64,000 bases of DNA from Halomonas sp. BDJS001 (GTDB taxonomy: Bacteria > Pseudomonadota > Gammaproteobacteria > Pseudomonadales > Halomonadaceae): positions 2,666,001 to 2,730,000 of the forward strand of contig NZ_CP110535.1 in the NCBI RefSeq assembly GCF_026104355.1. The letters run 5' to 3'. A model generated the notes under the pieces. That model ran no database searches. It saw only the letters and a program-made list of their open reading frames with translations, and was not told the DNA's origin. Both the position numbers and the translations under genes were made by a program. Positions 2,221 to 27,843 of the stretch are shown piece by piece (within the stretch, counting starts at the first letter, position 1; each line of letters starts with the position of its first letter).

Positions 2221-2379
2221 AATCAATTACTAAACTCGATATTAATAATAACGAGCATAACTATGATGCTGCGATTAGTAAAGTTGTGGGATAGCCGATA
2301 CGGCGAGTGAGTGCTTAAGTTGCACAAGGATGATGTTAGCTGTTCATTGGATTACCTAACCATTAACGGGAGAGGTGCC

Positions 2380-2514
2380 ATGTGGAACTGCCCTGTGCAA
2401 CGGAAGCTCTCTTTTGATCACTGTCACTACGCTTTTTTATCAAACGTACTCTCGCCTGCTCAGCAGTATGCAGAGAGAGGCGGCATCACTGGCTGCTTGC
2501 TGATTATCCTGTGA
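2380..2514 (+). CDS. Possible 44-residue ORF coupled to the diguanylate cyclase
   Basis: A small ORF starts at ATG 2380 with a strong ribosome site (GGGAGAGG, four bases upstream). It encodes 44 residues beginning MWNCPVQRKLSF and ending TGCLLIIL. Its TGA stop overlaps the ATG of the diguanylate cyclase (TGATG at 2512-2516), which has no clear ribosome site of its own. That arrangement is what translational coupling looks like. The peptide resembles nothing I know, and coding bias cannot be judged at this length. It may be a regulatory leader peptide or a chance ORF. Confidence 0.42.
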   Translation: MWNCPVQRKLSFDHCHYAFLSNVLSPAQQYAERGGITGCLLIIL

Positions 2515-3716
2515 TGATGCGTCGCTTTCTTCGTCAGCCTGGCGGACGCTTAGCATCCATTTTTACTGCCCTCCTCTTCGCGATGTCGGCTGTGATGGGT
2601 AGCTACCTCTACAGTGCGTGCCAAAAAGCCAGTGCTGACTACACCACGCTGATGAGTGACATAGTCTTGGCCCAGCAAGCCACACCTCAGTTACGTGCCG
2701 CCCTGGAGGAAAGCAGCCGCTTACCTGACAGCGAACATATTCAATACATCGATTATTTTATTTCACTCTCCAAGCAGCATTTAAATAACATACAGCGCAG
2801 TATTGAGCGCCATCGATATCTCATCGCGGATGTTGAATATCTCAATACGCATTTCAGCGAGCTTAATAGCCGCCTTTCAAACCTAAAACAGCAAGCACAA
2901 GAAGCCCAGCAGCGCCCAGAGCTTCGTGACCCGTTACAGCGCATGGCCATTGAAGTCGGCGGCGCTCAGTCTTGGCTGTATAACCAACTGCTGGAAAAGG
3001 TTCGGGCCATATCCGTTCAACAGCGCTTAGTCATGCAGCGACTCTCGATCGCTGTAAGTGCGCTACTGGTGTTGATGGTCAGCGCTGCAATCACGCTCTG
3101 CCTGGCCGTCATTTACCTACAACATCAGCGCAACATTATGCATCGTTTAATGCTAACCGATGAGTTGACGGGGCTCTATAACCGGCGACATTTGGTTAAT
3201 GTAGCCTCAGCAGCGCTCATCCAGGCACAGCGCGATCAAGTACCACTTAGCCTGCTGCTATTAGATCTTGACCACTTTAAGCAGATTAATGATAACTACG
3301 GCCACCCAACCGGCGATGAGGTGCTTCGCCAGATCAGTCAACTGCTTCGTCAGCTTAGCCGCCCTGCGGATACATTAGCGAGAATCGGTGGAGAGGAGTT
3401 CTGTTTATTGATGCCCAGCACGACGACCCATGATGCGCTACAGGCGGCGGATCGGCTACGCCGGGAGGTTGAAGTTAATACCTTTAGGGGGATCGACCTA
3501 CATGCCCACCCGACCGTTAGTATCGGCGTGACGACATGCCAAAGCGGTTCGCTGTCGTTTGAACAGCTTTACTCGTTTGCCGATAAAGCGCTCTACCAGG
3601 CTAAAGCGTTGGGGCGTAACAGGGTTGAAAGCCTGCTACCCCCTGGGGAACCCCCAACCTATACCGAGGCACAAGCTTGCACTCATATTCTCATCCGCGA
3701 ATCTAGCGACTCTTAA
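2514..3716 (+). CDS. Membrane-bound diguanylate cyclase (GGDEF)
   Basis: A 400-residue inner-membrane enzyme predicted to make c-di-GMP from two GTP. It has a transmembrane helix near residues 13-33, a periplasmic helical sensor region (about 34-180, coiled-coil-like, Q/R-rich), a second helix near 182-204 and a C-terminal GGDEF domain. The domain keeps DELTGLYNRRHL, LDLDHFKQINDNYGH and the active signature GGEEF. RPAD lies five residues before the signature and is a classical RxxD inhibitory I-site, so product inhibition is likely. The periplasmic domain is not a family I recognise, so the signal is unknown. GTG 2511, ATG 2514 and ATG 2517 are all possible starts; 2514 overlaps the stop of the small upstream ORF. 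Confidence 0.92.
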   Translation: MMRRFLRQPGGRLASIFTALLFAMSAVMGSYLYSACQKASADYTTLMSDIVLAQQATPQLRAALEESSRLPDSEHIQYIDYFISLSKQHLNNIQRSIERHRYLIADVEYLNTHFSELNSRLSNLKQQAQEAQQRPELRDPLQRMAIEVGGAQSWLYNQLLEKVRAISVQQRLVMQRLSIAVSALLVLMVSAAITLCLAVIYLQHQRNIMHRLMLTDELTGLYNRRHLVNVASAALIQAQRDQVPLSLLLLDLDHFKQINDNYGHPTGDEVLRQISQLLRQLSRPADTLARIGGEEFCLLMPSTTTHDALQAADRLRREVEVNTFRGIDLHAHPTVSIGVTTCQSGSLSFEQLYSFADKALYQAKALGRNRVESLLPPGEPPTYTEAQACTHILIRESSDS

Positions 3717-3745
3717 ACGGCAACTATTAGAATAAACGGTAAGCA

Positions 3746-5143
3746 TTAGAAAACCCGATTTAAACCGTTCTGAGCCGCCACGCGGTAGGCTTCTGCCATC
3801 GTGGGGTAGTTAAAGGTGGTATTTACAAAATACTTCAGCGTATTGGCAGCGCCCTCTTGCTGCATTATGGCTTGGCCGATATGCAGAATCTCGGAGGCCT
3901 GATCGCCAAAACAGTGAATGCCGAGTATTTCCAATGTGTCCTGATGGAAAAGAATTTTCAACATGCCCACGGTATCACCCGTAATCTGCGCCCTGGCGGT
4001 ATCTTTAAAGAACGCTTTGCCTACCTCGTAAGGCACTTTTGCTTCCGTAAGCTCCCGTTCATTGGGCCCAAACGAGCTGATCTCGGGGATGGTATAAATC
4101 CCGGTGGGCACATCACTCACAAAGCGATACTCTTTATCGAGCAACTCATTGCACGAATTCAAACCCTGATCGTAAGCCGCGCTCGCCAAACTCGGCCAGC
4201 CAATCACATCGCCGGCTGCGTAGATATGGGAAACCGCGGTACGGTAGTGCTCATCAACGCTTAATTGACCACGCCCATTAGCCGTTAAGCCAATATTCTC
4301 AAGGCCTAAACTGTCGGTATTACCGGTTCGCCCATTGGCCCACAAAAAAGCGTCGGCGCGAATTTTCTTGCCCGACTTGAGACGCACAACGACGCCTGAC
4401 TCATCGCCCTCAACACTTTCATACTCTTCGTTATGTCGAACCAACACCCCGTGCTTGCGCAAATGGTAAGAGAGCGCATCACTAATCTCGTCGTCCAGAA
4501 ACGATAGCAAGCTATCTCGGTTATTAATGAGATCAACTTTGACACCCAGGCCCGAAAAGATCGATGCGTATTCACAGCCAATCACCCCGGCCCCAAAAAT
4601 GATAAGGGTTCGCGGGGTATGCAAGAGGCTTAATATGGTGTCAGAGCAGTAAATACGTGGGTGGCGGAAGTTGATATCCGCTGGACGATAGGGGCGTGAA
4701 CCAGTGGCAATCACAAACTTCTTAGCCACTAATTCTTCCATACCTTCCTGACGGTCACGAACCAACAGGGTATGCTCATCTTTAAAACGAGCAACACCGT
4801 GGAAAAGATCAATACGGTTACGCGCATAAAAAGTCGTGCGCATCTCTACCTGCTTATCGATGGTACCCCGCGAGCGCTCCATCACTTTGGGAAAAGAGAA
4901 CCAGCGTGGCTCACCAATATCGCGGAACATACGGTTGGTGTTGAACGCCATGATCTGTTTAACCTGATGGCGCAACGCTTTGGACGGGATCGTCCCCCAG
5001 TGAGTGCAGTTACCCCCTACCTGCGCCTGCTTCTCAATAATCGCAACACGCTTGCCATGCTTGGCAGCGTTGATGGCAGCACTCTCCCCTGCAGGCCCCG
5101 TACCGATCACCACAACATCGTAATTGTGAACCGCCATACTCAC
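3746..5143 (-). CDS. sthA: Soluble pyridine nucleotide transhydrogenase
   Basis: A cytoplasmic flavoprotein that exchanges hydride between NADPH and NAD+, mainly to reoxidise excess NADPH. At about 465 residues it has the family length. The N-terminal FAD dinucleotide-binding motif is [10 protein letters not shown]. At the usual disulfide site it reads [14 protein letters not shown], so the second redox cysteine of dihydrolipoamide-type enzymes is a threonine, as in SthA. The NAD-binding motif ([14 protein letters not shown]) and the C-terminal dimerisation domain ([14 protein letters not shown]) follow. The frame opens with GTG at 5143 and an ATG lies two codons later at 5137; an AGGGGA ribosome site could serve either. 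It converges with the diguanylate cyclase, 29 bp away, with no clear terminator. Confidence 0.96.
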
Positions 5144-5703: not shown

Positions 5704-5738
5704 ATAAAAAACAGGGCCAGCCCAAAAGGCCAGCCCCG
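5704..5738 (-). terminator. Rho-independent terminator after nqrF
   Basis: Read on the minus strand, GGGCTGGCC-TTTTG-GGCTGGCCC forms a 9-bp stem with two central G-U pairs, followed by a T-rich tract (TGTTTTTTAT). It sits about 35 bp past the nqrF stop and before nqrM. Confidence 0.8.
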
Positions 5739-5770
5739 TTTAACGTTTGCGCTCGATTTACATCAAGTGC

Positions 5771-7003
5771 TTAGCCACCGAAATCATCCAACAGGATATT
5801 TTCCGGCTCAACGCCCATATCAAGCAGCAGCTTGATAACCGAGGCGTTCATCATTGGCGGCCCACACATGTAGTATTCACAATCTTCAGGCGCTGGGTGA
5901 TCCTTCAGATAGTTTTCGTACAGCACGTTATGGATAAAGCCTGTCGGCCCTTCCCAGTTATCTTCCGGCTGGGGATCGGATAGTGCTAAGTGCCACTCAA
6001 AGTTGGGGAACTCTTCGGCTAACTGGTCATACTCTTCGTTGTAGAAGGTTTCACGCCAGGAGCGAGCGCCGTACCAGAAGGTAATCTTACGATCAGTCTT
6101 CAAGCGCTTCAGTTGATCGAAGATGTGACTGCGCATCGGCGCCATACCCGCACCACCACCGATAAAGATCATCTCAGCATCAGTATCACGGGCAAAGAAC
6201 TCGCCGAACGGCCCCATCACAGTGACCTTATCGCCCTCTTTAAGGCTGAAGACGTAAGTCGACATCAAGCCGGGGGGGTGGTCAGTGCCGGGAGGCGGCG
6301 TAGCGATACGAATATTGAACTTGAGGATACCCTTCTCATCCGGGTAATTCGCCATGGAGTAGGCGCGAATCACTTCCTCGTTGTTCTTATGGGAAATTTT
6401 GAACATATCAAATTTTTCCCAGTCACCCCGGTACTCCTCTTCAATATCAAAATCAGAGAATTTGACATCATAAGGGGGCGCAACCAGCTGGACGTAGCCA
6501 CCGGCGCGGAAGGCAACTTCTTCGCCTTCAGGTAGTTTCAGGTTCAGCTCTTTGATAAAGGTGGCAACGTTGGGGTTAGCGATAACCTCGCATTCCCACT
6601 TCTTCACCCCGAAGACTTCTTCAGGCACTTCTACCTTCATGTCCTGTTTTACAGGTACCTGACAGGAGAGGCGCCAGCCCTCTTTCTTCTCACGCATGGT
6701 GAAGTGCGATTCTTCGGTCGGCAAAATAGAGCCGCCGCCCTCTTCTACCCGGCACTTACACTGAGCACAAGAACCACCGCCGCCACAGGCGGAAGAGAGA
6801 AAAATGCCGTTAGCGGCAAGCGTGTTGAGCAGCTTACCACCGGCCTGGGTCTTCAAAGTGTGTTCGGGGTCGCCGTTGACTTCAATGGTCACGTCCCCGC
6901 TACTCACAAGCTTGCTTCGCGCTGCCAGAATGATCGCCGTTAAGCTAATAACGATGACCGTGAACATGACAACACCGAGCAAGATGACTGTTGTATCAAC
7001 CAT
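5771..7003 (-). CDS. nqrF: Na+-translocating NADH:quinone reductase subunit F
   Basis: The NADH-oxidising entry subunit of the sodium pump, 410 residues. A single N-terminal membrane helix (about residues 5-27) is followed by a ferredoxin-like 2Fe-2S domain with cysteines C73, C79, C82 and C114 ([11 protein letters not shown], then RLSC). Next are the FAD-binding segment RAYSMANYP and the NADH-binding domain ([20 protein letters not shown], then the C-terminal MCGPPMM and the end LLDDFGG). Electrons pass from NADH to FAD, then 2Fe-2S and on to the membrane cofactors. It is the last gene of nqrABCDEF, 72 bp beyond nqrE, and is followed by a terminator. Confidence 0.98.
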
Positions 7004-7075
7004 GTCGGTTTCCTATTGCTGGAGGTTTTCTATTACCCAGCGGTGTTCCGCACCGCTGGGAAAAACCGGCGCCGT

Positions 7076-7693
7076 TTAAAGCTGAATGCCCGAGAAGGAC
7101 ATAAAGCCCAACGACATCAGCCCCACGGTGATGAAAGTAATGCCCAGCCCTTGCAGGCCACCCGGCACATCGCTGTACTTCAGCTTTTCACGAATACCCG
7201 CCAGGGCCGCAATGGCCAGTGCCCAACCGGTACCCGCACCAAAGCCATAGACCACGGCTTCACCGAAGTTATAGCTACGCTCTACCATAAACAGCACACC
7301 ACCAAGAATGGCGCAGTTAACGGTAATCAGCGGCAGGAATACCCCTAGCGCGTTGTAAAGCGCTGGCACGTACTTATCAAGGAACATCTCCATGATTTGT
7401 ACCAGCGCAGCGATAACGCCGATATAGGAGAGCAAACCAAGGAAGGACAAATCAATATTTTCAGCACCGCTGATACCAGTCCAGGTCAACGCACCTTCCT
7501 GCAGCAAGAAGGTATAGACGAGGTTGTTAACCGGTACGGTGACAGTCAGCACCACAATAACAGCGATACCCAGGCCAATCGCTGAGGAGACTTTTTTGGA
7601 CACCGCCAAGAAAGTACACATCCCCAGGAAGAAGGCCAGTGCCATGTTCTCAACAAACACCGAGGCAACAAAAAGACTCAGATAATGTTCCAT
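7076..7693 (-). CDS. nqrE: Na+-translocating NADH:quinone reductase subunit E
   Basis: An integral membrane subunit of about 205 residues with six predicted helices. Together with NqrD it carries the intramembrane iron centre. The conserved cysteine-bearing helices are visible as [16 protein letters not shown] and [16 protein letters not shown]. Its start lies one base past the nqrD stop, so translation is very likely coupled. NqrE and NqrD are homologous, inverted-topology proteins, and both resemble RnfA/RnfE. The absence of Rnf ferredoxin genes and the presence of nqrA and nqrF around it identify this as Nqr. Confidence 0.97.
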
Positions 7694-20955: not shown

Positions 20956-23579
20956 TTGCGTTTGTCCTCCACATGCCATTTACCGCCGTCAAACATCGCC
21001 TTCCAACCAGTGGCCTTGCCCTCTTCGTCCGTCATCACATACTGCTCTTTACTCTTCCGCGAGTAGCGGATTTGCGCCGGACGGCCATCGGGATCTTCGC
21101 TGGGCGCTTTGAGAATAAAGTGATACTTCTCAGGCAGCTCTTCGGCATGCGCCTTCAGCTCTTTCACTAGCGGTGGCCGCGTTTCGCGATTTTTCGGAAA
21201 CTTGCTGGCTGCCAGAAACAGTCCGCTTGCTCCGTCACGTAGCACGTAGTGGTCGTCAACTTTTTGACAGGCCAGTTCCGGCATCGGGATAGGATCCATT
21301 TTTGGCGGCGCCACTTCGCCACTCTTCAACAGTTTACGAGTATTTTTACACTCACTATTGGTGCAGCCAAAATACTTACCAAAGCGGCCTGATTTCAACT
21401 GCATCTCAGAGCCGCACTTATCGCATTCGATAATCGGGCCATCGTAGCCCTTGATCTTGAATTTTCCGCTCTCCACTTCATAGCCGTCGCAATCGGGGCT
21501 GTTACCGCAGATGTGTAGCTTGCGCGTTTCGTCGAGCAGGTAATTGTCCATCGCCGTGCCGCACTTGGGGCAGCGTCGCTTGGCACGCAGCGCATCGGTT
21601 TCGGCCTCTTCCCCTGCATCTTCAGCCACCGCCTCTTCACCTGGAATCAGGTCAATGGTGGTTTTGCAGCGCTCTTTGGGCGGTAAATTGTAACCACTGC
21701 ACCCCAGGAAAACCCCGGTAGACGCTGTACGAATCTGCATATGACGTCCACAGCTTGGGCAGTCGATATCCGTGGGCACCGGCTGATTAGGCCGCATGCC
21801 ATCTTCGCTCTCGGCCTTCAGAAGCTCTTCCCGAAACTCACTGTAGAAGGCGTCTAGCAGCGCCTGCCAGTTACGTTCGCCTTCGGCAACTTCATCCAGG
21901 CTATCCTCCATGCGGGCGGTGAACGAAAAGTCCATCAAATCAGGGAAGGATTCTTTCAACCGCTCGGTGACGATATCGCCTAGTTTTTCAGCGTAGAAAC
22001 GGCGGTTTTCGAGCTTCACATAGCCACGATCCTGAATCGTCGAGATAATCGAGGCATAAGTCGAAGGCCGACCAATGCCCTGCTTCTCAAGCTCCTTGAC
22101 CAGGCTTGCTTCGGTGTAGCGTGGCGCGGGTTTGGTGAAGTGCTGCTGAGGATCGAGGGCTTCCAGCGCCATGGGCGTGCCCTTAGGCAAGTCGGGCAGG
22201 CTCTGGTCTTCATTTTTTCCACTGGGCTTCATCACCCGGGTATAACCATCAAACTTCAGCACGCGGCCTTTGGCGCGCAGCTCATAGCCATCGACCTCCA
22301 CACTCAGGGTGCTGGACAGGTACTCTGCGGGGGTCATTTGGCAAGCCACAAACTGACGCCAGATCAATTCGTATAGACGCTCCGCATCGCGCTCCATACC
22401 GGCCAGGTCGGAGGCCTTTCGCTCAACGCTGGAGGGACGAATCGCTTCGTGGGCCTCTTGGGCGCTCTCTTTGCTACTGTAGCGATTAGGCGCTTCTGGC
22501 AGGTAGCGCTCGCCAAACTCTGAGCCGATATAGCTGCGCGCACTCTCAACCGCATCTTTTGACAGGTTGGTGGAGTCGGTACGCATATAGGTGATGTAAC
22601 CCGCCTCGTAGAGGCGCTGGGCCATAGTCATGGTCTTTTTAACTGAAAAGCCTAATCGACCACTCGCTGCTTGCTGCAGCGTTGAGGTAATAAAGGGCGC
22701 CGTGGGTTTTGAACTAGTCGGCTTATCTTCCCGGGAGGTAATGGCCAGCTTGGCTTTGCGAAGCTGCTCAATACGCGCCAGGGTGTCTTTTTCGGAGGTG
22801 GGCTTAAAGGGTTTGCCATCCTGACGTACCAGGGCAAAACGCACCAGTTCACCCTCGGGTGAGGCCAAATCCGCGTGAACGTCCCAAAACTCTTCAGGTA
22901 TAAAGGCGCGAATTTCACGCTCACGCTCGACAATCAGTCGTACCGCAACTGACTGCACACGACCCGCCGACAGCCCACGCGCCACCTTCGCCCACAATAG
23001 CGGCGAGAGCATAAAGCCCACCACACGATCCAGGAAGCGCCTGGCTTGCTGCGCCTCCACCCGCGGTATATTAAGCGCACCAGGCGCCTTGAAGGCGTCC
23101 TGAATAGCGTTTTTGGTGATTTCGTTAAACACCACTCGCTTATAGCGGTTATCGTCTCCACCAATGGTCTCGCGCAGGTGCCAGGCAATGGCTTCCCCTT
23201 CGCGATCCAAATCCGTTGCGAGATAGACAGCGTCGGCTTTCTCAGCCAGCTTTTTGAGTTCGGCAACGACTTTCTCTTTTCCGGGCAGCACCTCATAGCG
23301 GGCTTCCCAGCCGTTGTTAGGGTCGATCCCCATACGCCGAATCAATTGATCCTGGTTTTTACGCTTTTTATACGCTTCTTTCTCTTCCGCCGACATCTTG
23401 CGTGTCGCTGCGGCCTGGCGTGCGCGCTCCTTGGGGTCGGAGGCTGCCTTACCTGAGCCGCTGGTCGGCAGGTCACGAATGTGACCCACGCTCGACTTCA
23501 CGATGAAATCGTTGCCGAGATATTTGTTAATCGTCTTCGCTTTCGCTGGCGACTCGACGATGACCAGTGACTTGCCCAT
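20952..23579 (-). CDS. topA: DNA topoisomerase I
   Basis: The type IA topoisomerase that relaxes negative supercoils, 875 residues. It starts [22 protein letters not shown] (TOPRIM), with the acidic [13 protein letters not shown] motif. The active-site tyrosine is in [14 protein letters not shown] (about residue 335). The C-terminus has three zinc-ribbon modules ([42 protein letters not shown]) and then a basic tail that helps bind single-stranded DNA and RNA polymerase. It is followed without gap by the DUF6586-like gene. Confidence 0.98.
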
Positions 23580-23867
23580 AGTGCTCCACTTTCCTAATGC
23601 ACGGGCTGTCTAGCGCGTGCTCTGAATTCGGTGCCGTATCGCCGGGACGAAACCGCCCATAAAACAAGATACGGATGAAAAAAATGCGCCTACCCTACCC
23701 CAGCCCTTGGTGAAGCGCCAGTAGCAACCAAGCCGCAGGGGGAATCCGGAGTTTTAAGACGTAGTTTCTCGACATACTTTTAAACGCGCTTCTAAAGACA
23801 TCGTTTTAGACAAAGAGTAGCTAGACACTAGACTGCCACCGGCATTACAGCAACCCAAAAGCTACGG
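23580..23867. other. Intergenic region upstream of topA
   Basis: About 345 bp lie between the topA start and the stop of the DUF3141 gene. The right end holds the terminator of that gene. The rest should contain the topA promoter, often supercoiling-sensitive, but no box could be chosen with confidence. I see no gene or repeat in it. Confidence 0.5.
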
Positions 23868-23906
23868 AAACAAACAAAACGCCCCCACCAAATAGGCAGG
23901 GGCGTG
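23868..23906 (-). terminator. Rho-independent terminator of the DUF3141 gene
   Basis: Minus strand: ACGCCCC and GGGGCGT form a 7-bp stem around a 13-base loop, followed by TTTGTTTGTTT. It lies about 20 bp past the stop. Confidence 0.8.
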
Positions 23907-23924
23907 GCAATCTAAGGCACTGTT

Positions 23925-26612
23925 TTAGCGCTTAGGGGGCGTCTTTTTTCGCCCAGCAGGCCTAGCCGGCTTAGCCGTTGGCTCACTTGCCGAATCCCTC
24001 GCCGCAGCCGGTGCAGGCGTAGACTCCTTTGAAGGCGCTGACTCGTTAACCACAGGCTGCTCAACAGCCGCTGGCGCAGGCTTGGCTGACGGGGCCGCGG
24101 AAGGCTTTGCCTTAGTGGCTTGTGGCTTATCAGCACTCGTTGGCTTCTGTGCAGCAGCAGGCTGGGCTGCCCCAGCCGCCCTACTCTTTGCGGGCTTGCT
24201 CGCTGCCGGTTTGCTCGCTGCAGCCTTACTCGCTGCTGGCTTGCTCGCTGCAGTTTTGTTCGCTGCAGCCTTACTCGCTGCTGGCTTGCTCGCTGCTGGC
24301 TTGCTCGCTGCTGGCTTGCTCTCGACCGGTTTATTCTCTACCGACTTGCGGGGCCTAGCCTTATCAAACAGCGCTTTAATCTGAGCAAAACGCTCAGCAG
24401 CATGCTCGGAAAGCTCCCCGCTGGCGGCAAACACATGCTCAAGGTGGCTGATATAGCCATCGATATCGGCGTCGCTGCTACCTGCCAGTAGAGTAGGCAG
24501 CGAATTCAACGCCTGCTCCCTATCCAGCTTCAAGATAAAGAACTGCTCGCGCACCAGGTTTTTAAAATCGCTCAGCTTGATACCTGGCTCTAGCTCTGCC
24601 CGGGAGGCACGCAGCCGCTTAAAGTTACGCTCATCCGTGGCTGGGGCGCCACCGAGTACATAGATAAGCGAGCGCATGACCGCTTCATGGGCGCCACCAT
24701 GGGCAATTTTCTCGCGTAGCGCTTCCTGGCGCTGCTCAATGAAGCGGCGATGCTCGGGTTCAGCGCCAGGGCGGCGACGATGCACATGGGCATCGCCATA
24801 TAGGCCAACGGCAGCCTGTAGCAGCGGCTGACCGTAGATATCCATAAACATTTTTTCGGTGCTGCTATCGCGTAAATCGCGCATAGCATTGAGACCAGCG
24901 ACCAGTTGGTCAGACCCCATGGTTTCAAGCGCTTTAAACAGGTTGTCTTGCGCTACCGGGTGACGATTCTTGCGCACGGCTTCCGCCATTACCGGCAACG
25001 GTACTGAAAGCGGGTTACGGTCAGAGAGCAGCTTGTAGCCTAACCGAATCGGGTGCATACGACGAATAAAGCGGGCTGCTTCCGGCGTCATGATTGCTTT
25101 TAGCCAGGGCTGCATAAAGAGCCGGTACATGCCCAAGTTGATCTCGGATATTCGCGCCACAGTGGCAAAACGGCGGTCATCCTCTGGCTTATGCATTACC
25201 GCCTGATCCAACTCTTCAAAGTTGCGCGGCATAAATTCAAGCAGATAGTCACGCTCAAACAATTCGGCATCTTCGCCCTTTTCGGCCGGTGATATGGACG
25301 TTTCATACAAGCCAGGCGGCAGGACGTCAATGTAATCCATATTGGCAGTGAATTCGGTATGCTCTTTACGCGATACACTACCCGACACAAAAATCCCTAA
25401 GTGGCCGGTGGTATCGTGCTGGCAATAGACGATGGTTTGTTCGTTCGCGATGATGTCGTCTTCGTTTTCATACAAGTCACGAATCCAGCCCAGGGCTTGA
25501 GGGGGCGGAGTAATATCGTCACCACGTGAGCAGAACACGACCACGGGCGAGCGCACATTGCGCAGGTCGATTCGACGCCCATCGCGGGTCACCAGTTGGG
25601 CGGTAGAGAGTCGATTGCCGATAAACAGGTTATCGACAATATACTGAATCTCTTCACCGCCCAATACGACGTGCCCACCCCACCAGCGCTCAAAATCGAG
25701 GTAACGGCCAGCTTCTGTATCGATATTGTCGTAAAGGTGATACTGCTTTTTCCAATAGGTGTTGGCTGGATTGAGGCGCTCAAAATTCTGCACTAGCCAG
25801 GCACCGTCGAACAAACCATTGCCTATGTCGCTGGTGAGCTCCGTTATCCAGCTGCCACCCGCCATACCTCCGGTGTAACGCATCGGCGCTTTGCCATGCT
25901 CGCCGGCCCAGTAAGAGAGCGGTGCACCGGCAATCAGAATAGGGCCGAATACGTGCGGCTCCAAGGCTGCCGCCATCATGATTTGCCAGCCTGCCTGGCA
26001 ATTGCCTACCACCATCGGTTTTTCGGTAGTTTCGGGATGAAGCTCGACCACATGGCGAAGAAAGGCAATTTCCGACTCAACGACGTCTTCGACAGTTTGG
26101 CCCGGCTCGGGAAACGGCAAAAAGCCAATAAAATAGCAAGGATGCCCTGCTTTAAGCGCCACGCCCAACTCACTATCAGGCTTGAACCCACCAATCCCTG
26201 GCCCATGACCTGCACGGGGATCCACTACAACAAAGGGGCGCTTTTGTAGATCAATCTCCGTCCCTTCATGAGGCAGCACGCGCAACAGCTCGTAGTTGGT
26301 TGGCCGTGGTAGCGTCCGGCCATCCATGAGCACTTCAGTCTCAAACCCCAGCACATTGGGCTTGGTTTGCTCCATATGCTCAAGGTACTGATTACCGCGT
26401 TCGCGCATCACATCCAGATAGAGAACGCTGCGCTCCATGCTGTCGCGCCAGTACCCAAAGGCGGCGCGGCCAAATCCGAACGGGTCGAAAAAAGCTGAGA
26501 TCGCCTCGCTAGCGGGCACCGTAGTGGCATCATTATTCTGTTTCGACCACGCGTTTGTAAAAGCGCTAGCTGGGAATAAAGAGGTGGTCAGAGGATTAGC
26601 AAGAAAGTTCAT
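23925..26612 (-). CDS. DUF3141 PhaC-like alpha/beta hydrolase with Lys/Ala/Pro tail
   Basis: An 895-residue protein from ATG 26612 (GGGAGA ribosome site). The N-terminal half resembles polyhydroxyalkanoate synthases. The nucleophile elbow is GNCQAG with C205 rather than serine, a likely acid is D365/D366 in SRGDD, and a likely base is H404 in GHLGIFVSG; their order and spacing resemble PhaC. The middle (about 410-750) is helical and specific to DUF3141. The last 140 residues are a low-complexity tail of AASKPAASK repeats, like the DNA-binding tails of PhaF or histone H1-like proteins. Whether it polymerises hydroxyacyl-CoA is not known. A LysR regulator is divergent. Confidence 0.88.
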   Translation of the reverse strand: MNFLANPLTTSLFPASAFTNAWSKQNNDATTVPASEAISAFFDPFGFGRAAFGYWRDSMERSVLYLDVMRERGNQYLEHMEQTKPNVLGFETEVLMDGRTLPRPTNYELLRVLPHEGTEIDLQKRPFVVVDPRAGHGPGIGGFKPDSELGVALKAGHPCYFIGFLPFPEPGQTVEDVVESEIAFLRHVVELHPETTEKPMVVGNCQAGWQIMMAAALEPHVFGPILIAGAPLSYWAGEHGKAPMRYTGGMAGGSWITELTSDIGNGLFDGAWLVQNFERLNPANTYWKKQYHLYDNIDTEAGRYLDFERWWGGHVVLGGEEIQYIVDNLFIGNRLSTAQLVTRDGRRIDLRNVRSPVVVFCSRGDDITPPPQALGWIRDLYENEDDIIANEQTIVYCQHDTTGHLGIFVSGSVSRKEHTEFTANMDYIDVLPPGLYETSISPAEKGEDAELFERDYLLEFMPRNFEELDQAVMHKPEDDRRFATVARISEINLGMYRLFMQPWLKAIMTPEAARFIRRMHPIRLGYKLLSDRNPLSVPLPVMAEAVRKNRHPVAQDNLFKALETMGSDQLVAGLNAMRDLRDSSTEKMFMDIYGQPLLQAAVGLYGDAHVHRRRPGAEPEHRRFIEQRQEALREKIAHGGAHEAVMRSLIYVLGGAPATDERNFKRLRASRAELEPGIKLSDFKNLVREQFFILKLDREQALNSLPTLLAGSSDADIDGYISHLEHVFAASGELSEHAAERFAQIKALFDKARPRKSVENKPVESKPAASKPAASKPAASKAAANKTAASKPAASKAAASKPAASKPAKSRAAGAAQPAAAQKPTSADKPQATKAKPSAAPSAKPAPAAVEQPVVNESAPSKESTPAPAAARDSASEPTAKPARPAGRKKTPPKR
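24193..24330 (-). repeat. 15-bp coding tandem repeats (AASKP units)
   Basis: About nine imperfect copies of a 15-bp unit related to TTGCTCGCTGCTGGC encode the AASKP/AASKA pentapeptides of the DUF3141 tail. Copies differ mainly by CTGCAG and GCTGCC variants. Such arrays change copy number easily. Confidence 0.85.
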
Positions 26613-26856
26613 AGGGTCTCCCGTGGGGTTGATGCACAAGCACCAGACCCGAAAGCAATAATGCTGCAATGCAATATAGTCTAGTCCACTACGTGTACTA
26701 CGTCGATCTTTAACCCTGATAATTACCCCTTACGCGACTAATCAAGCCGTGTTTAGGCAGCGCTAAAGGTTCAGTGTTAGCATGCTCTGCCCTGGCGATT
26801 GAGCCTGATGTTGATACTACTCTTAAACGTTTAAGGGTGCCCACTACGAGGTAGCT

Positions 26857-27843
26857 ATGTCATCCCCCAATCTGCTCAATCGCCTGACATTTCGGCAGCT
26901 TCAGGTCTTCCAAGCGGTGCATCGGCAGCGCTCATACTCCCGCGCAGCTGAGCAGTTGGGATTGACCCAGCCCGCGGTGAGCGCACAAATACGCCAACTA
27001 GAGCTGGCATTGGGTCAACCTCTGTTCAATTATGCGGGCAAAACCCTCCACTCGCTGCCTGCCGCCGACACACTTGCCCACTCAGCGCGAGAAATTTTTG
27101 GTCAGCTTTCGCGGCTGGAAATGAACCTATCGGATATTAACGGCAAAATTAGCGGAGAACTTAATATCGCAGCGGTCTCTTCAGCCCAATATGTAGTCCC
27201 TTATTTACTTGCCCGCTTCCGTGCTCACTACCCGGAGGTGCACGTTCGCTTAAAGGTGTGCAACCGCCGTCAGGCGCTCGAGCGACTCACGGAGCAGCAG
27301 GATGATCTCGTCATCATGGCGATGGTTCCTGAAGACGAACGCTTAGTGGCGATGCCGATTATTGATAACGAACTGATCGCCGTTGTGTGGCCGAACCATC
27401 CGCTACTTTCGATGCCACAACCCTCATTAGCGGACTTCGCTCGCCACTATGTTCTGATGCGCGAACCCGGCTCTGGCGTACGCAACGCCTTTGAGCAGAT
27501 GGCAGCCAGTCAGCAAGTTGCCCTTCCCCACTGTATTGAGCTGGGCACCAACGAGGCAATCAAAGGCGGTGTCATGGCTCACTTGGGCGTAGCCGTGCTG
27601 CCACGCTTAGCGGTTCAGCTGGAGCTTGAGCAGGGGTTACTTTTTGAACTGGGACTGCCCGACTTCCCCATCCACCGCTCTTGGTGCACGGTCTATACCC
27701 GGGAGCGCTTACCCACACCTGTCGCCGAGCTCTTTTTAAGCTTTGTTCGAGAACACTTACCCGATTACCGTCGCCACTTTCAGGCGCCCTCCAGCCCCCT
27801 GCCCAGCCATGGCGTAGCCTGTTTGCCAATACATTCACCCTGA
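26857..27843 (+). CDS. LysR-family transcriptional regulator (CbbR-like)
   Basis: A 328-residue regulator with an N-terminal winged helix-turn-helix (LTFRQLQVFQAV, then AAEQLGLTQPAVSAQIRQLE) and a C-terminal periplasmic-binding-like effector domain (from about residue 95). The N-terminus is of the type seen in CbbR and its relatives. No Calvin-cycle genes are here, so I do not infer that role. It is divergent from the DUF3141 gene across 244 bp. That region contains a direct repeat of ACTACGT (26688-26694 and 26697-26703) that could be part of its operator. LysR regulators often control the divergent neighbour. The ligand is unknown. Confidence 0.9.
   Translation: MSSPNLLNRLTFRQLQVFQAVHRQRSYSRAAEQLGLTQPAVSAQIRQLELALGQPLFNYAGKTLHSLPAADTLAHSAREIFGQLSRLEMNLSDINGKISGELNIAAVSSAQYVVPYLLARFRAHYPEVHVRLKVCNRRQALERLTEQQDDLVIMAMVPEDERLVAMPIIDNELIAVVWPNHPLLSMPQPSLADFARHYVLMREPGSGVRNAFEQMAASQQVALPHCIELGTNEAIKGGVMAHLGVAVLPRLAVQLELEQGLLFELGLPDFPIHRSWCTVYTRERLPTPVAELFLSFVREHLPDYRRHFQAPSSPLPSHGVACLPIHSP

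Follow-up and report, generated by a model that had tools for sequence, protein, structure and literature searches.

The 64,000-nucleotide stretch of Halomonas sp. BDJS001 analyzed here (contig NZ_CP110535.1, positions 2,666,001 to 2,730,000; hereafter the window) encodes an 895-residue protein of the DUF3141 family, which joins a catalytic domain resembling that of the polyhydroxyalkanoate (PHA) synthase PhaC to a basic C-terminal tail. On balance, and with some reserve, we favor the view that this protein is a granule-bound, PhaR-controlled, PhaC-like acyltransferase of a DUF3141/PhbX family and not a synthase. The evidence comprises a PhaC-type fold, an invariant Cys-Asp-His triad, a promoter palindrome common to phasin genes and, in other Proteobacteria, a neighborhood of pta, ack and fabI. 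The idea of the original prediction, namely that a single protein could act on polymer or acyl-coenzyme A (acyl-CoA) and place granules on the nucleoid, is already in print for an orthologue (PMC3227634; PMC8686332); the shared operator, the PhbX link, the operon count and the tail survey are added here. Halomonas are industrial bioplastic producers, and the gene is annotated as a second synthase, which it probably is not. Should it encode a granule enzyme under PhaR, it would offer a target for improving yields of polymer, and its role could be tested directly through the PhbX link, the operon and the PhaR-like operator. The question of the tail bears on granule placement and inheritance.

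A PhaC-Type Catalytic Domain

The gene is one open reading frame (ORF) running from 26612 down to 23925; the original prediction had given no strand for this interval, and the minus strand is established here. The coding features are as follows.

23925..26612, minus strand: coding sequence of the 895-residue DUF3141 protein (ORF, Pfam, literature), orthologue of Halomonas TD01/O-1 'PhaC2' and probably related to PhbX
24705..26444, minus strand: DUF3141 domain, residues 57-636, with an alpha/beta-hydrolase core at about residues 67-430 (Pfam; model and PhaC matches)
25998..26000, minus strand: Cys205, nucleophile of GNCQAG (residues 203-208)
25518..25520, minus strand: Asp365, triad acid (SRGDDIT), role assigned from position
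25401..25403, minus strand: His404 of the triad (TGHLGIF), role assigned from position
24351..25283, minus strand: mostly helical C-terminal region, residues 444-754 (model)

The Pfam match to DUF3141 (PF11339) covers the entire profile (1-582 of 582) with an E-value of 1.8e-279 and 928.7 bits against a cut-off of 29.7. In order to follow the family beyond the window, we used the best 80 of 351 relatives (the named loci, mostly from Halomonas, Vreelandella and Billgrantia, plus Arhodomonas L080), a phylum sample of 25 DUF3141 loci from 398 genomes, four of which belong to the window's own family, and a set (A1) of the window plus 47 loci hand-picked for spread. The triad was read from 105 aligned sequences, that is, the window, 79 of the 80 named loci and the 25 loci of the phylum sample; L058 was excluded since the script called no ORF there, and its GNCQAG is nevertheless present. 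Cys205 is kept in all 104 sequences with a residue at that position (one has a gap), and Asp365 and His404 are kept in 105/105. GNCQAG also satisfies the PhaC box (G/S)XCX(G/A)G as quoted in PMC8686332.

The structure model of residues 1-754 reached a predicted local distance difference test score (pLDDT) of 82.4 and a predicted template modeling score (pTM) of 0.83. Foldseek searches with this model placed PhaC structures at ranks 1-13, with E-values from 1.3e-7, and VIA placed them at ranks 1-7 (Z 22.8-24.4; root-mean-square deviation 3.3-4.2 over 291-315 residues), ahead of gastric lipase as the first match of another kind (Z 20.9). A sequence-profile search of the PDB also gave a PHA synthase, 9knj, as its top match, at a weak E-value of 0.002. 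The protein thus has a PhaC-type fold and an invariant Cys-Asp-His triad; the cysteine elbow, the aspartate and histidine in PhaC order and the PhaC-like domain that had been read from the sequence are all borne out, and so is the conservation of the triad. Residues 444-754 are a different matter: no fold was recognized in the searches made (pTM of the model only 0.48; best Foldseek E-value 1.1, best VIA Z 5.8). A TerB-like domain was also considered for this region and not retained, as the Pfam matches listed for 43 members do not include TerB; the absence of TerB from the Foldseek and VIA lists for this region is no evidence against it.

A Promoter Palindrome Shared With Phasin Genes

Upstream of the gene, three elements are conserved in an alignment of 36 rows, consisting of the window and L002-L036 only.

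26662..26674, minus strand: conserved PhaR-box-like palindrome TTGCATTGCAGCA, present as TTGCRNYGCAGCA in 36/36 rows
26673..26678, minus strand: -10-like TATATT running into the palindrome, in 35/36 rows (L011 differs)
26617..26622, minus strand: Shine-Dalgarno-like GGGAGA, in 33/36 rows

The start codon is supported because the GGGAGA...ATG context recurs in those 33 rows. Of the 80 named loci, 78 carry the palindrome core TGCRNYGCA no more than 400 bp upstream (L061 and L080 lack it), as against 8/720 background windows of the same length taken from the first 4 kb of the same loci, mostly coding DNA; for the longer TTGCRNNGCAGCA the counts are 68/80 and 0/720. The core had been derived from the DUF3141 gene and was then tested upstream of phasin genes in eight genomes, where it occurred in 23/24 cases (miss in L167), with 8/120 in background windows and 0/24 for the reversed pattern. 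A later set of family loci gave 22/24 (one further locus, L216, was unscored), and its species may overlap with those of the first set.

The PhaR box of Bradyrhizobium has been described as NGCN3GC[GA]N3, with the proximal box overlapping the -10 element of phaP1 (PMC10888616), and the same layout of a box over the -10 is found at the DUF3141 gene. The fit to the box is weak on its own because the box is short and TTGCRYTGCA is common in the genome; the conservation of the palindrome and its recurrence at phasin genes carry more weight. The palindrome at the -10 box is a candidate PhaR operator.

The exact form at window positions 26665-26674, TTGCAYTGCA, has 11 sites in the genome, at least two of which lie upstream of PHA genes (the DUF3141 gene and a phasin). 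A conserved hairpin in the 5' untranslated region, between promoter and start, was also considered and rejected: its consensus energy is -2.31 kcal/mol, and 0/7 pairs changed on both sides among 29 rows.

PhbX and the Link to Granules

The granule protein PhbX of Pseudomonas extremaustralis, of 93.50 kDa, has been reported from purified PHA granules (PMC4041789). A DUF3141 gene of the window's order, found in one of 25 genomes of its genus (L225), encodes 848 residues and 93.43 kDa, begins with MSQESFFA and ends in KGGSAE; the published phbX primers encode MSQESFFA and KGGNAE. It is flanked by phaR and a phasin at one end and by pta-ack-fabI at the other, and two palindromes stand in the gap between it and the divergent phasin. 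From termini, mass and gene order, and not from the full sequence, we take PhbX to be a DUF3141 protein, an identity that is not stated in the literature found on DUF3141 or GNCQAG. With the window protein PhbX would share the DUF3141 family, as judged from its ends and mass; no synthase activity has been seen for PhbX, which is placed beside phaR and a phasin. It differs in being linked to phbF/phbP, and the L225 relative has pta-ack-fabI behind it. The connection to PHA granules that had been proposed from the sequence of the window thus gains ground from the PhaR-like operator common to phasins and from the reported presence of PhbX in purified granules.

The published record of the family is varied. 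The TD01 orthologue was described as a PhaC2 with a longer C-terminus (PMC3227634, in 2011), and the role of PhaC2 was later called unresolved (PMC12229310, in 2025). The TD01 protein (EGP19504) and its O-1 counterpart share GNCQAG, a mass of about 90 kDa and a long C-terminus of high isoelectric point (pI) with the window protein, and in TD01 a lysR gene also lies upstream; by their published descriptions, nothing essential appears to differ. Among relatives, both the sequence and the length of the tail differ. In Halomonas 363, a 'phaC' gene rises under PHA conditions and is transcribed about tenfold above phaC1 and phaC2 (PMC8357295); its TIGR01836 match and size suggest that it belongs to DUF3141. 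Elsewhere a DUF3141 gene of Jeongeupia is listed as phaZ, a depolymerase (PMC8050969), and that of P. umsongensis lies by phaCAB, a phasin and phaR (PMC8601165).

The pta-ack-fabI Neighborhood Outside Halomonadaceae

Twenty of 21 loci outside the family entered the neighborhood survey (G253, with the broken frame L106, was excluded), and five of the twenty belong to one genus (g109). In 17 of these 20 loci, ack, pta and fabI all lie within the fetched stretch, and in 15 of the 17 ack and pta are on the DUF3141 strand; two loci have none of the three genes (L126, L132) and one has fabI only (L130). A CoA-transferase gene is also present in 6/20. Pfam searches bore out the family assignments of the query proteins. 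As annotated, Sinorhizobium meliloti pSymA and a Rhodobacter plasmid carry the order DUF3141-pta-ack-fabI. On pSymA (L222), a 297-bp ORF annotated DUF3141 is also found at 4424-4720 of the locus, on the opposite strand and 1.2 kb upstream of the full-length gene.

The operon itself has been described before: Burkholderia phaC-pta-ack-fabI clusters have been related to the PhoB-controlled ORF-pta-ack-fabI operon of S. meliloti (PMC8231600), and our contribution is the count. In Bradyrhizobium diazoefficiens, the predicted operon blr3456-blr3459 begins with blr3456, which changes 7.2-fold in a phaR mutant (PMC10888616). The pta and ackA genes of this organism are blr3457 and blr3458, and the gene order suggests that blr3456 encodes the DUF3141 protein. 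Both operons thus resemble the Halomonas system in having the same enzyme family, by annotation in S. meliloti and by gene order in B. diazoefficiens; they differ in that most sampled proteins from outside the family have no long tail, and no such operon was found in the genome of the window.

The C-Terminal Tail and Its Basic Cap

The tail of the window protein comprises 141 residues rich in Ala, Lys, Pro and Ser, with a pI of about 10.8.

23928..24350, minus strand: low-complexity basic tail, residues 755-895, net charge +20 (composition and charge)
24189..24321, minus strand: 15-bp tandem repeat in about nine copies, encoding AASKP-type units (repeat analysis)
23928..23972, minus strand: basic C-terminal cap, residues 881-895, net charge +7 (charge survey)

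The original prediction had described about 140 residues of AASKP-type repeats like the nucleoid-binding tail of PhaF. The length and the basic character hold, whereas the regular repeat covers only about 44 of the 141 residues, the remainder being irregular and rich in A, K, P, S and E. The likeness to PhaF is not supported beyond composition and charge: the phasin domain of the PhaF kind (PF05597) is not among the Pfam matches of the protein at E-values up to 1, and the match of the tail to the histone H1-like family HC2 (PF07382) is below threshold (16.7 bits where 40 are required; E-value 0.0082).

We surveyed 80 sequences (P0001 and 79 named loci). Tails of at least 40 residues are present in 76/80, and lengths range from 8 residues in the nearly tailless L080 to 294. 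The charge of the tail is not kept, with the net value at least +5 in 46 of the 76 long tails, zero or below in 17, and extremes of -16 and +25. Given this variation, the whole tail is unlikely to bind DNA as a general trait, and we dropped such binding as a conserved property. What the tail does keep across relatives is a short basic cap. The last 15 residues carry at least +5 in 59/80 sequences compared with 5/493 control ORFs, and at least +3 in 71/80 compared with 50/493, where the controls are other ORFs of at least 200 residues called mechanically in the same loci, and the relatedness of the sequences means that these counts convey no probability. The protein bodies are acidic throughout the survey, with net charges of -17 to -36. 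In the phylum sample, tails of at least 40 residues occur in 7/25, three of those seven being from the window's own family.

In addition, the phasin that adjoins phaC1 in the window's genome (L133) also has a short tail bearing Lys and Arg at its end.

Proposed Role and Points Against It

We propose that PhaR binds the palindrome, so that the gene would be made together with the phasins, and that the DUF3141 protein sits on the granule, where it would move 3-hydroxyacyl groups onto CoA from polymer or oligomer, or in the reverse direction. The products could then feed enoyl-CoA reduction by FabI, formation of acyl phosphate by Pta and of adenosine triphosphate (ATP) by Ack. The PHA synthase of the cell would be the PhaC encoded beside a phasin elsewhere in the genome. 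In halophiles the protein would have acquired a disordered, variable tail with a short basic cap at its end; most likely this tail is a flexible arm, and the cap would bind an anionic partner such as DNA, RNA or granule lipid. The thiolysis direction, with 3-hydroxyacyl transfer from polymer to CoA, is put forward tentatively and with more doubt than confidence; our estimate was lowered a little further because the one long Pta scanned with Pfam matched PTA_PTB only and had no hydratase domain. The extra N-terminal part of the long Pta form has been described as an enoyl-CoA hydratase (PMC8231600).

In a bolder and rather improbable extension, DUF3141/PhbX proteins would form a granule-enzyme class of their own, cleaving polyhydroxybutyrate (PHB) by transfer to CoA. 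During oxygen or phosphate stress they would supply an ATP-yielding route from PHB to butyrate that runs through DUF3141, enoyl-CoA hydratase, a FabI-like reductase, Pta and Ack. The Halomonadaceae gene would no longer belong to the operon but would still be controlled by PhaR, and its product would have acquired a tail mooring granules to the nucleoid, a role that a tailed PhaC would fill in a genus without DUF3141.

A number of observations weigh against the acyltransferase reading or its parts. That hydratase-less scan is one of them; the long Pta is found in only 4/17 operons, and the window's genome has one Pta match, a 743-residue frame without the operon form, because of which the operon argument is not directly transferable to this genome. 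No assay of DUF3141 protein chemistry was found in the literature retrieved. Regarding PhbX, the basis of the match is partial, neither phbX primer occurs letter for letter in the L225 locus, and the L225 protein has GNCQAG, which fits poorly with the remark of the PhbX authors that they failed to find the key synthase residues in PhbX (PMC4041789). As for the operator, TTGCRYTGCA has 58 sites in the window's genome compared with 23 for the reversed pattern, the mostly coding background is a weak point of the enrichment, and the palindrome lies between the DUF3141 gene and a divergent lysR and may be a LysR site. Outside the family the core occurs upstream of DUF3141 in 4/20 loci compared with 49/688 windows, with no clear enrichment; on these counts we rejected the idea that every DUF3141 gene has a PhaR box. 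Finally, the passages of PMC10888616 consulted show no direct binding of PhaR to the blr3456 promoter.

Alternative Explanations

The protein could also be an additional PHA synthase that forms a class by itself, in agreement with the annotation PhaC2, with the fold and the triad discussed above and with the placing of DUF3141 among PHA synthases in PMC11878206. The protein has, however, no PhaC_N (PF07167) match at E-values up to 1, and the NCBIfam models of PhaC classes score far below their cut-offs (TIGR01836 at 30.3 against 365.3 bits; TIGR01838 at 21.5 against 622.65). Moreover, O-1 PhaC2 is reported to have made no PHA in E. coli (PMC8686332; PMC12229310), and PhbX failed to complement a PHA-negative P. 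putida (PMC4041789). We hold this explanation to be very unlikely, and the acyltransferase reading is preferred for the catalytic domain.

For the tail, two explanations compete with a flexible arm. The catalytic domain may hold the granule while the basic tail binds DNA, thereby placing or sharing granules as PhaF does. Tail pI values of 9.60 and 10.10 and a histone H1-like match in the TD01 protein have been published and taken to indicate DNA binding (PMC8686332, in 2021). The C-domain of PhaF binds DNA, and the KPAA tail of AlgP spaces polyphosphate granules (PMC3574117; PMC9239181); both share an A/K/P-rich basic tail on a granule protein and differ in having a phasin or helical N-domain in place of an enzyme, with more regular repeats in AlgP. 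The strong net charge of the window's tail and the basic cap also speak for tethering, as does a genus (g219) in which DUF3141 is missing in 4/4 genomes and the PhaC frames of 895-1015 residues carry long A/S/T/K tails, basic in character. Against it stand the 17 long tails of zero or negative charge, the eight-residue tail of L080, the unmatched phasin domain and the sub-threshold HC2 score. A tether of granules to DNA via the tail is possible, yet we regard it as unlikely. The tail might instead have arisen by neutral slippage of the 15-bp repeat within a disordered linker and serve no binding function, in keeping with the repeat itself and with the wide spread of lengths and charges; the cap, kept far beyond controls on such acidic bodies, speaks against slippage, which we consider a doubtful though not negligible explanation. 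Our preference remains the flexible arm with a basic cap.

Tailed PhaC Proteins and Genome Context

The PhaC tails of g219 (L217-L220) contain PRRGRPS near the end in 4/4 genomes, which we take to be an AT-hook-like core; neither the term AT-hook nor RGRP is present in the main text of the Cobetia paper PMC8686332. The genus resembles Cobetia as described there. Cobetia PhaC2 is likewise a PhaC-like enzyme with a long basic HC2-like tail and proposed DNA binding, but, unlike the Halomonas protein, it is a true class I PhaC, and by its description it is no homologue of TD01 PhaC2 (PMC8686332). An in-place swap of catalytic domains beside lysR in g219 was dropped, as the LysR of this genus shares only 27-28% identity with that of the window.

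Among 61 Halomonadaceae genomes, DUF3141 is over its cut-off in 32 of the 49 with PhaC_N and in 1 of the 12 without, where the match is in two pieces (Fisher p 6e-4, with no correction for kinship). Profile searches of the window's genome gave one match each for DUF3141, PhaC_N, PTA and PhaR (PHB_acc_N) and three for Phasin_2, with none for PF05597 at E-values up to 0.001; the single PhaC_N match lies elsewhere and not in the DUF3141 protein.

Within the window, the DUF3141 gene is preceded by the divergent lysR and a lipoyl synthase gene, and topA sits downstream, past a terminator-like hairpin. Rfam at gathering scores gave no match in 23500-27200.

23879..23905, minus strand: terminator-like hairpin of 11 pairs (8 G-C), just 3' of the stop codon (consensus scan only; five such sites found against 3.4 expected)

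Short DUF3141 forms, some with in-frame stops, are found in several genomes of the family. In one of the loci examined (L221, G437:C32), a short DUF3141 gene with a frame of about 600 residues lies near a second PhaC-like gene (2285-3901 and 5722-7320).

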